From: Sphingobium nicotianae
GTDB lineage: Bacteria > Pseudomonadota > Alphaproteobacteria > Sphingomonadales > Sphingomonadaceae
Assembly (NCBI RefSeq): GCF_018603885.1
Contig: NZ_JAHGAW010000001.1
Coordinates: 434,001 to 498,000, forward strand
Length of the DNA: 64,000 bases
Reading direction: 5' to 3'
Shown here: positions 5,265 to 6,982 of the stretch, one piece after another
Numbering within the stretch: position 1 is the first letter of the stretch
How the letters are laid out: the number at the start of each line of letters is the position of its first letter
Program-made: the position numbers and the translations under genes
The notes under the pieces: generated by a model
The model's input: only the letters and a program-made list of their open reading frames with translations
Told to the model about the DNA's origin: nothing
The model's database searches: none

Positions 5265-5279
5265 GTTCTCTTTATGTTC
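5265..5279 (+). promoter_or_regulatory. LexA (SOS) box, alphaproteobacterial GTTC-N7-GTTC
   Basis: Exact GTTC, 7 bp, GTTC direct repeat, 10 bp upstream of the ATG of the truncated radical-SAM gene. This is the LexA operator form known from Caulobacter and Rhodobacter. Its position over the start region predicts SOS-inducible, LexA-repressed transcription of the original gene. A chance match cannot be excluded, but the placement next to a COG1533 (spore photoproduct lyase-like) gene is sensible. Confidence 0.6.
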
Positions 5280-5289
5280 TTTTTCCGCC

Positions 5290-5544
5290 ATGCCCCTGAT
5301 CAAGGGCCGCGGTGCCCCGTCCAATGTCGGTTCGTCACGTTTCAGCTTGCCCGCGCGGCAGGTCGATGGCGACTGGATGGACTTTCGGCTGGAGGACGAG
5401 GACGCCCCGCCCCCGCTGCGCACCACGATCACCGAGGAGCGCGCCCGGACGATCATCACGCGCAACACATCGCCGGACGTCGGCTTCGACCAGTCGATCA
5501 ATGCCTATCGCGGCTGCGAGCACCCCCGCAACGGTTGCAACTGA
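5290..5544 (+). pseudogene. 5' fragment of PA0069-family radical SAM gene
   Basis: It starts at an ATG (MPLIKGRGAPSNVGSSRF) and matches the intact gene at 5915 over its first 78 residues, with about half of them identical: GRGA, DGDW, LRTT, TIITRN, SPD.GF, QSINA and GCEH. It breaks inside the radical-SAM cysteine motif: GCEH is followed by PRNGCN and a stop, while the intact gene continues GCEHGCIYCF. Codon use is GC-rich like the neighbourhood, so this looks like the original resident 5' end. It retains a consensus LexA box upstream. Confidence 0.8.
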
Positions 5545-5820
5545 CTAGGGAATGCTTCGACGATTGAGGTAAGCAACCTGCTCCCTCGCCTCCTGGTCGG
5601 TGTAAAAAGTATCGGGACAATCTACTGGCGGCTTGTAATCTCCATAACCAAGCCGCTCTCGGTATGATTGCATCGCCTCAAACCACGATGACGCACGGAG
5701 ACGGAAAACAAAGCGAGCATCGGGAAAAAGAGTCGGCCTCAACTGATCGGAGCGTTCTTGCACGATGCCGAACTCTCCACCGTCATCGCTTTCCCAATAC
5801 TCGTGCAACAGCTCAGCCAT
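5545..5820 (-). CDS. hypothetical protein carried by the insertion
   Basis: A 91-residue protein starting MAELLHEYWESDDGGEFG and ending AREQVAYLNRRSIP. It is acidic in the first third and has FVFRLRASSWFEAMQSYRERLGYG in the middle. The frame is open further upstream (PLFVAVAKYEH precedes the ATG and looks coding), so the true start may be a GTG or ATG up to 5949. Base composition is lower in GC than the flanks. I do not recognise the family. It is the only gene wholly inside the insertion, transcribed away from the substitute radical-SAM promoter, and its stop lies 22 bp from the left junction. Confidence 0.5.
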   Translation of the reverse strand: MAELLHEYWESDDGGEFGIVQERSDQLRPTLFPDARFVFRLRASSWFEAMQSYRERLGYGDYKPPVDCPDTFYTDQEAREQVAYLNRRSIP

Positions 5821-5890
5821 GTGCTCATATTTAGCCACCGCCACAAACAGGGGCAACCGGCAGTTTGGATCGCGGGCCACTTGCCCTTTT

Positions 5891-5905
5891 GTTTCATATA
5901 TGTTC
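5891..5905 (+). promoter_or_regulatory. degenerate LexA-like box upstream of intact radical SAM gene
   Basis: GTTT-N7-GTTC, one mismatch from the GTTC-N7-GTTC operator, ending 9 bp before the ATG at 5915. The position mirrors the consensus box of the fragment at 5265-5279, and both share TGTTCTCTTT. This suggests the substitute promoter derives from an orthologous SOS-regulated promoter that has drifted. Evidence is the spacing and position only. Confidence 0.3.
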
Positions 5906-5914
5906 TCTTTGCAT

Positions 5915-6982
5915 ATGCCCTTTAAAAACGGTCGCGGCGCGACGAACAATCAGGCGAGCACACGCTTTAACCTCGCTCAACGTGAGGCAGACGGCGATTG
6001 GCTGGACGAGTTTGAGGAAATCGATGGTCCTGCATCAAAGCTCAGAACTACTGTTACCGAACTGAAATCAAAGACGATCATAACGCGCAACAGCTCCCCC
6101 GATATCGGATTTTCCCAATCGATCAACGCGTTCGCCGGCTGCGAGCATGGCTGCATCTACTGCTTTGCGCGGCCGACCCATGCCCGGATGGATCTATCGC
6201 CCGGCCTCGATTTCGAGAGCAGATTGTTCGTGAAACCCGAAGCAGCCAGGTTGCTGCGGGCCGAGCTCGCCAGACCGCGCTATGTCGTCAGGACCATCGC
6301 GATGGGGACCAACACCGATCCCTATCAGCCGATCGAGGGCCGCTATCGCATCACCCGCGCCTGCATCGAGGTGCTCGCCGCCTGTAGGCACCCGTTGATG
6401 ATCACCACCAAGTCCGACCGGGTCACGCGCGATCTCGATCTGCTGGCACCGATGGCCGCGCAGGAACTGGTCGCGGTCGCTCTCTCGGTGACCAGTCTCG
6501 ACCCAGCCCTCTCCCGCAAGCTGGAACCGCGCGCTCCGCATCCGCGCAAGCGCCTCGCCGCGATCCGCGCGCTGAGCGAAGCGGGCGTGCCGGTGAACGC
6601 CTGCATCTCGCCGATCATTCCGGCGATCAACGACATGGAGATTGAGGCGCTGGTCGAGGCGACGGTCGAGGCGGGTGCGCGCTCGGTCTCAAACATCCCA
6701 GTGCGCCTGCCGTTCGAGGTCGCGCCGCTGTTTCGCGAGTGGCTCGCCGAGCATTTCCCCGATCGTGCCGACAAGGTGATGCACCAGATCCAGTCGATCC
6801 GTGGTGGGCGGGACAACGACCCGGACTTTGGAACCCGCATGCGTGGACAGGGGCCCTATGCCGACCTCATCCGCCTGCGCTTCGACAAGGCCCGCGCCCG
6901 GCATGGCATCCACAACGACGGGCGGATCAGCCTACGGAAGGATCTGTTCGTGCCGCCGAGCGATCAGGGACGGCTGTTTTAG
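5915..6982 (+). CDS. PA0069-family radical SAM protein (SplB-like, COG1533)
   Basis: A 355-residue radical S-adenosylmethionine enzyme related to spore photoproduct lyase; the reaction of this subfamily is unknown, though DNA repair is often suggested. It starts MPFKNGRGATNNQ. The [4Fe-4S] motif is CX3CX2C (C76, C80, C83; GCEHGCIYCFARPTHARM). Later conserved blocks are MGTNTDPYQPIEGRYRITR, MITTKSD and CISPIIPAIND. The first ~75 codons are clearly richer in A/T than the remainder, so the gene is a mosaic whose N-terminal part came with the insertion. A longer in-frame start at 5765 is rejected because it overlaps the reverse gene. Confidence 0.9.
   Translation: MPFKNGRGATNNQASTRFNLAQREADGDWLDEFEEIDGPASKLRTTVTELKSKTIITRNSSPDIGFSQSINAFAGCEHGCIYCFARPTHARMDLSPGLDFESRLFVKPEAARLLRAELARPRYVVRTIAMGTNTDPYQPIEGRYRITRACIEVLAACRHPLMITTKSDRVTRDLDLLAPMAAQELVAVALSVTSLDPALSRKLEPRAPHPRKRLAAIRALSEAGVPVNACISPIIPAINDMEIEALVEATVEAGARSVSNIPVRLPFEVAPLFREWLAEHFPDRADKVMHQIQSIRGGRDNDPDFGTRMRGQGPYADLIRLRFDKARARHGIHNDGRISLRKDLFVPPSDQGRLF

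Follow-up and report, generated by a model that had tools for sequence, protein, structure and literature searches.

Prophages that integrate by large serine recombinases (phiC31, Bxb1, A118 type) mostly disrupt their target gene or sit at its end, and the integrase of phage HK022 is of the tyrosine type. Replacement of a part of the host gene has been described as well: the prophage HK022 replaces the promoter of torS at its attachment site (PMC6814406), and in the dusA islands, which encode their own family of integrases, the 5' sequence of dusA is island-derived (Farrugia et al. 2015, PMC4482086). Recombinase-less hitchers are represented by clusters of attC sites lacking integrases (CALINs) and miniature inverted-repeat transposable elements (MITEs) (PMC11389934), and PLE 1 of Vibrio cholerae employs a large serine recombinase and is helped by a phage (PMC6002521). 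Here, we describe a 625-bp unit within a 64,000-nucleotide stretch of Sphingobium nicotianae (the window; genome G000, contig C1, positions 434001-498000), which interrupts a radical S-adenosylmethionine (SAM) gene of the PA0069 family at its cysteine motif.

With the dusA islands, the locus shares entry near a conserved 5' position of a housekeeping gene, an original 5' end that is left outside, and semi-conserved direct repeats at both ends (PMC4482086). Site-specific insertion of the unit is well supported. The unit is probably a non-autonomous mobile cassette that was inserted by a large serine recombinase like those of prophages at this site.

Anatomy of the interrupted gene and its empty sites

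The features of the locus are collected in Table 1. The fragment at 5290-5544 translates to MPLIKGRGA...NAYRGCEHPRNGCN followed by a stop, and the intact gene covers 5915-6982; all coordinates that the original prediction, made from the sequence of the window, had given for a gene cut at GCEH and rebuilt further on hold. The inserted unit (5523-6147) comprises a tail, one reverse gene, and a promoter with a 5' end. Its predicted make-up of a reverse gene and a spare 5' end stands but was incomplete, as the unit also carries a short tail that recurs in the attL of a prophage with a serine integrase. Joining the fragment to the body (5522 to 6148) yields one open frame of 355 codons without a stop, as foreseen. 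The block is also AT-richer: GC and third-position GC (GC3) amount to 0.53 and 0.55 in the cargo gene and 0.53 and 0.61 in the new 5' end, versus 0.67 and 0.87 in the fragment and 0.66 and 0.83 in the body. The predicted 12-mer cggctgcgagca is present at 5511-5522 and 6136-6147, where it ends a 75-nt repeat of 76% identity (5448-5522 and 6073-6147). Because this longer repeat is homologous gene sequence, the 12-mer is neither a chance match nor a simple target-site duplication, and the latter was excluded. In the window unit, reading of the open reading frames (ORFs) and Pfam searches revealed a single cargo gene and neither an integrase nor a serine recombinase.

Table 1. Features of the interrupted radical-SAM locus in window coordinates.
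Feature	Positions	Strand	Basis
GTTC-N7-GTTC box (SOS/LexA-type) of the original promoter	5265..5279	+	Pattern match; same box upstream of uninterrupted genus genes and fragments
Host-type 5' end of the radical-SAM gene, cut after GCEH, then stop	5290..5544	+	NCBIfam NF033668, E 1.7e-17; best native match G090, rank 4 by gene body
Left junction core GGCTGCGAGCA (attL side)	5512..5522	+	Repeat and junction comparison
Tail of the inserted unit (cccccgcaacggttgcaac), putative right half of the element's attachment site	5523..5541	+	Common to 11 of 12 cassettes and the S. xinjiangensis prophage
Cargo gene, 91 amino acids, no assigned function	5545..5820	-	ORF reading and homologue starts; Pfam DUF7552 at E 0.017, below cut-off
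Unit-borne divergent promoter region, AT-rich, 94 bp	5821..5914		Half SOS-type box (GTTC, 5902-5905); second half lost
Unit-borne replacement 5' end, AT-richer, ending in NAFAGCEH, not host-type NAYRG	5915..6147	+	Composition and residue comparison
Right copy of the 12-bp repeat (attR side core)	6136..6147	+	Repeat comparison
Host body of the PA0069-family radical-SAM gene, made whole by the new 5' end	6148..6982	+	Whole gene 5915-6982, NF033668 459.6 bits versus cut-off 360

The radical-SAM gene is present in 89 of 94 genomes of the genus, and its 5' region was read in all 89. A single 5' end was found in 84 of them, which answers the proposed search for an uninterrupted gene in close relatives, and five are cut (G000, G049, G054, G058, G059). 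The uninterrupted genes comprise 83 with the motif and that of G043, which reads GSEHGC; G057, counted as uninterrupted, runs off a contig end inside the gene. In blastn, one continuous locus of G090 aligned with both flanks of the insert, with the G090 5' end matching twice, and the window genome, when searched, contained no 3' part of a second radical-SAM copy. As a side observation, the G043 gene (L172) reads NAYRGSEHGCIYC, with serine replacing the first cysteine of the motif, so the protein may be inactive or the serine base may be a sequence error.

Upstream of the gene, the GTTC-N7-GTTC box, which we take to be the alphaproteobacterial LexA (SOS) box, was found for 82 of the 83 uninterrupted genus genes with the motif and, across the 12 units described below, for 12/12 fragments and 10/12 unit-borne 5' ends, at a shuffled rate of 0.2%. 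Most units therefore supply the same kind of control together with coding sequence. The complete box is missing from the unit-borne 5' ends of G441 and of the window unit, the latter keeping one half. A radical-SAM protein, which may or may not be of the PA0069 family, belongs to SOS regulons of Gram-positives and Balneolaeota (PMC7739468). A second box lies in the window at 2687-2701 on the reverse strand, 13 bp before a reverse ORF (1229-2674), and two matches per window are not above chance (29/100 shuffles). The product of this ORF is presumably RmuC-like.

Recurrence of single-gene units at one codon

In total, 12 integrase-less units were found in 12 genomes, all of them cut at the same codon of the radical-SAM gene. 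In all 12, the original 5' end is left outside, the body is fused to the element-borne 5' end, and the GC content of the unit is lower than that of both flanks. These 11 further cases and the empty sites in relatives bear out the prediction of an insertion into the cysteine motif that keeps the gene whole through a spare 5' end. What did not stand is the notion of a one-off event, as the insertion is recurrent and site-specific, with the cargo differing from case to case. Within the genus, 5 of the 89 gene-bearing genomes are carriers, and the fragments of the four other than G000 stop at the same codon (GCEH, GCDQ, GCEQ), followed by different cargo.

Outside the genus, a draw of 397 genomes of the family gave 357 with a 5' end match, 11 of them in the genus. 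Two such matches were found in nine genomes, namely G000, six with units (G160, G199, G220, G186, G194 and G441, out of 346 gene-bearing family-draw genomes outside the genus), G472 (see below) and G098, which showed a single match in two re-searches and was dropped. A pattern scan of genome contigs returned six matches: the known loci of G160 (L087, Sphingomonas sp. SCN 67-18) and G059 (L091, a metagenome-assembled genome named Sphingobium), one new unit (L090 = G481, Sphingomonas sp. Leaf17), one prophage (L089 = G480, S. xinjiangensis), and two chance matches inside coding sequence (Nocardioides L088, Desertivirga L092). Among 385 genomes drawn from the class, 204 had the 5' end, and two matches occurred only in G000 and G675, the latter being the sole genome outside the family with two. 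All genome searches were thresholded, and decayed fragments can escape detection because of this cut-off. The 5' half of the gene also matched 26 plasmid records, apparently large replicons (0.1-4.9 Mb), and had no match in the phage collection searched. The units measure 625, 633, 707, 782, 806, 818, 905, 997, 1108, 1146, 1183 and 1357 bp. Element sizes at the site are thus bimodal, with 625-1357 bp or about 43-45 kb and none intermediate among those found.

The junctions share a core, GGNTGCGASCA, followed by a similar tail in 11/12 units. The consensus of ten sequences (nine units and the prophage) reads GGcTGCGAGCA-n-CCCCgCAACnGTTGTG, and the tails of G058 and G441 fit it by eye with a shift of one base. 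Over 20 nt and 13 sequences, the mean pairwise identity of the tails was 0.48 versus 0.25 for random cassette 20-mers, with 0/20000 draws reaching 0.48. The residues before the core differ as well: uninterrupted genus genes read N[AP]Y in 83/83 cases with the motif, and the five cut genus genes read NAF, NPF, NSF, NVF and NPI, with F or I replacing Y. Arginine precedes the core in 11/12 fragments and in 0/12 unit-borne 5' ends. The glutamate codon is GAG in 11/12 right junctions, whereas the uninterrupted genes of the genus have GAG 42 times and GAA 41 times, which hints at a preferred site. A reading of the tail as a Xer/dif site or an integron attC site was rejected by eye on mismatching spacing and cores, with no tool-based attC search run, and no cassette arrays were seen among the 12 units.

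One clear cargo gene, in either orientation, was found in 11/12 units; G186 contains overlapping ORFs without a clear call. The gap from tail to cargo was 12-67 bp in the nine tail-bearing units measured, and 7-242 bp separate the cargo from the radical-SAM start in 10/12 units; by coordinates, the window unit has gaps of 3 bp and about 95 bp, respectively. The automatic cargo pick could not call G186 and missed the window unit, because a longer reading of 134 amino acids overlaps the radical-SAM start while the reading of 91 amino acids fits. The shorter reading is the best one, as the homologues in G040, G033, G026 and G090 start at or near the same methionine. Pairwise blastn of the 12 cargo regions gave no similarity at E 0.01. 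For the ten non-window cargo proteins, Pfam assigned DUF2199 in G054 (2.5e-35) and DUF4145 in G058 (1.2e-10), and only a weak WapI match in G160 (0.063), leaving seven without a match; six cargo proteins including that of the window had no PHROG match at E 0.1. For the window cargo, the best match in a PDB sequence search was at E 0.18, and the single-sequence structure model was uninformative (mean predicted local distance difference test score of 50). Its homologues (G040, G033, G026, G090 and, partial, G059) lie in ordinary places without a tail motif nearby, so that they were rejected as cassettes elsewhere. The original prediction had named unrelated contexts of the reverse gene as a sign against the insertion; such contexts do exist, and the insertion itself is not weakened by them because the cargo is the variable part.

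The unit-borne 5' ends appear to be of mosaic origin. In four of the five genus cases (G000, G054, G049, G059), the best native relative of the fragment ranks 1-6 of 83 by gene body, and in G058, where the fragment is frameshifted, it ranks 25. The best native relative of the unit-borne 5' end ranks 16-33 in all five cases, agreeing with the body in 0/5. Between G054 and G059, the unit-borne 5' ends are 84% identical, the bodies 67% and the fragments 56%; for G199 and G059, the corresponding values are 74%, 66% and 56%. G054 and G059 also share 77% DNA identity in their promoter-plus-5' modules, and their cargo is unrelated.

A phage recombinase at the same site and competing explanations

The same fragment and tail were found in S. 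xinjiangensis DSM 26736, where a recombinase gene of 564 amino acids follows 48 bp further on. Its product contains Resolvase, Recombinase and zinc-ribbon domains (Pfam) and belongs to PHROG 95, integrase. Siphophage-like genes follow the recombinase (large terminase, portal, head protease, major head protein, tail fibre/J-like), an endolysin gene lies on another contig, and the intact regenerated gene on contig C5 has a unit-type 5' end (NPLVG). The element would measure 43.3 kb as the sum of the distances to two contig ends, only if these ends adjoin. In two IMG/VR contigs, L112 (23.9 kb) and L113 (9.8 kb), phage-like genes lead directly to a radical-SAM gene whose 5' end is not of the host type (NTVQG and AQPYVG, respectively). 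At least one bacterial virus seems to share this site. G483, the record of L113, terminates in a regenerated 5' end of the radical-SAM gene and holds a truncated recombinase that is 56% identical over 262 amino acids to the S. xinjiangensis enzyme. The record of L112, a fragment, gave no Recombinase-domain match. Both contigs also contain a small paired-cysteine (zinc-ribbon-like) gene 2-3 nt before the regenerated radical-SAM start (L112:2685-2981, L113:2639-2977), one of which had a PHROG match, a weak one.

Since the recombinase gene directly adjoins the same tail in the prophage, the enzyme responsible would be a large serine recombinase, judging from this one prophage and the one viral contig, and it would move the integrase-less units in trans. 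A cassette would then have three parts: the tail as one half of an attachment site, a single cargo gene, and the promoter with the initial ~78 codons of a foreign radical-SAM gene. The end of these codons would form the other half of the site. A prophage-type large serine recombinase would join the circular attP (unit-borne 5' end plus tail) with attB, the conserved host GGCTGCGAGCA, by a crossover in the core. The resulting attL would be composed of host 5' end and tail and the attR of element 5' end and host body. The host 5' end would stay behind as a fragment on the tail, while the host body would take over the promoter and 5' end of the cassette. The host gene could survive the insertion because the unit supplies a replacement front half.

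Two accounts without a recombinase can be set against this mechanism. An incoming divergent radical-SAM allele with a neighbouring gene may have recombined at the conserved motif by homology, the alternative already named with the original prediction, and the exchange point indeed lies in the most conserved stretch, with homology on both flanks of the motif. However, the common tail after the left junction is not radical-SAM sequence and stays unexplained, all 12 cases are cut at one codon, the host 5' end persists as an extra fragment, and the unit 5' ends lack the host-type residues before the core, which makes this account very improbable. An old tandem duplication with decay of one copy would produce two 5' ends in tandem, but it is contradicted by the empty sites in 84 of the 89 relatives, whose absence had been named as evidence for it, and by the foreign composition, the cargo in between and the genome without a second 3' part; we find it hardly conceivable. 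A third account shares the recombinase with the cassette reading: each unit may be a serine-integrase prophage that was deleted down to its att halves and one accessory (moron) gene. Full prophages do occupy the same site, the units share their ends, and the genus carriers have no recombinase; moreover, neither a present helper nor circles were seen, which keeps this account in consideration. Nevertheless, the 12 cases include no intermediate sizes and no remnants of recombinase or structural genes, the cargo is tightly packed, and the six cargo proteins searched did not match PHROG. We therefore consider decay rather unlikely. Movement in trans is favoured by the tight packing, the unlike cargo, the bimodal sizes and the occurrence of similar 5' modules in different hosts.

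Several observations weigh against the cassette reading. The unit of G049 has no tail. Dyad symmetry, which is expected of large serine recombinase attachment sites, was unsupported in the rebuilt attP, as 1344/2000 column-shuffled null runs were as high in what is a weak test with 11 sites. Across the 12 units, the rank correlation of fragment versus unit 5' end against the gene body was not significant (p = 0.66, with the genus set as reference and seven of the 12 hosts outside it), and support for the mosaicism is thus limited to the nearest neighbours and pairwise identities. Serine recombinases gave no match at E <= 0.001 in the five genus carriers and none at E <= 1e-80 in the 397 family genomes, where up to three candidates were scored per genome and the draw held no positive control; the helper would accordingly be rare or lost. 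Four pattern or protein scans of viral contigs did not reveal a free phage attP and returned nothing or chance matches: the protein scan gave no recombinase relative, the tail pattern was absent in a scan whose gap of 8 would miss the 7-nt form seen in G483, two pattern matches without radical-SAM sequence were judged to be chance, and another scan returned none. In G483 itself, no radical-SAM end precedes the tail motifs and the recombinase is truncated, and the L113 record may be rearranged or chimeric since the motifs and that end are not joined. The two tail-like motifs in question (ending ACGGTTGTGTA) lie ~50 bp apart upstream of the truncated recombinase, at about 1180-1290 of the reverse complement of L124, and are perhaps recombinase binding sites or the result of secondary integration.

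Some recombinase relative exists in 33 of the 94 genus genomes, with the nearest being 37% identical (G025 and G062). In both genomes (L118, L119), the 37%-identical enzymes are encoded near one shared housekeeping region without radical-SAM sequence. The housekeeping gene is presumably MurA-like, and the region probably serves recombinases of this class as a further attachment site.

Taking both sides into account, the cassette reading of the window unit retains our preference. Whether there is a wider system, in which phage serine integrases let recombinase-less single-gene units hop between sphingomonad lineages, with half of a DNA-damage-box gene of the host as part of the recombination site and with that gene surviving every insertion because it is refitted each time with a new promoter box and 5' end, we regard as evenly balanced.

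Other elements at the motif and relation to known systems

The cysteine motif was also found to be interrupted in another manner. In G472 (L085, L184; G472:C1:92794-138634), an element of about 45 kb splits the radical-SAM gene after GCEH, at the same codon. Besides three tyrosine-recombinase-like genes, two of them supported by Pfam, it contains a fourth, small one, a layout like that of GInt islands (PMC5385486). Body and fragment are left apart. Unlike the window unit, the element has no tail, and in place of a 5' half it brings a spare radical-SAM gene that is complete and equipped with a GTTC-N7-GTTC box of its own. Furthermore, NF038136, the intein-containing Rv2578c family, aligns with the window gene (5915-6982) around a gap of ~260 profile positions at the cysteine motif, so that, judging from the profile coordinates, this position also seems to host an intein family in Rv2578c relatives. 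As both the G472 element and this intein strike the same motif, it may be a favoured target for unrelated parasites.

If the cassette reading is true, a minimal mobile gene can consist of one cargo gene, one att tail and half a host gene, and the integron-like principle of a cassette plus a separate recombinase would extend to large serine recombinases. Genetic engineering would gain new attP/attB pairs, of which many natural variants exist, and a class of duplicated gene 5' ends that are annotated as pseudogenes would be accounted for. In literature searched without preprints and most subscription journals, single-gene units linked to serine integrases were not found described, nor was this gene as an attachment site.

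With regard to the large serine recombinase prophages, the S. xinjiangensis element is alike in having its recombinase directly beside attL and its site within a coding gene. Unlike in the phiC31, Bxb1 and A118 type, a promoter and ~78 codons are replaced here, and the window unit is without a recombinase. HK022 differs as a full phage that replaces the promoter only (PMC6814406). The units resemble integron cassettes, CALINs and MITEs in being small and non-autonomous, with one gene each and a recombinase that would be located elsewhere (PMC11389934). In contrast to integron cassettes, they were not seen in arrays among the 12 cases, would depend on another recombinase class, would use host coding sequence as half of their site, and have a tail unlike attC by eye. 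The dusA islands, in turn, have their own tyrosine-type integrase (PMC4482086), whereas the units described here have one cargo gene and no integrase; the target also differs, being the PA0069 radical-SAM gene, and a serine recombinase is encoded by the full-size element that comes closest. Islands that replace the 5' end of a gene are therefore already known from dusA, and the present units look like a new form of them.

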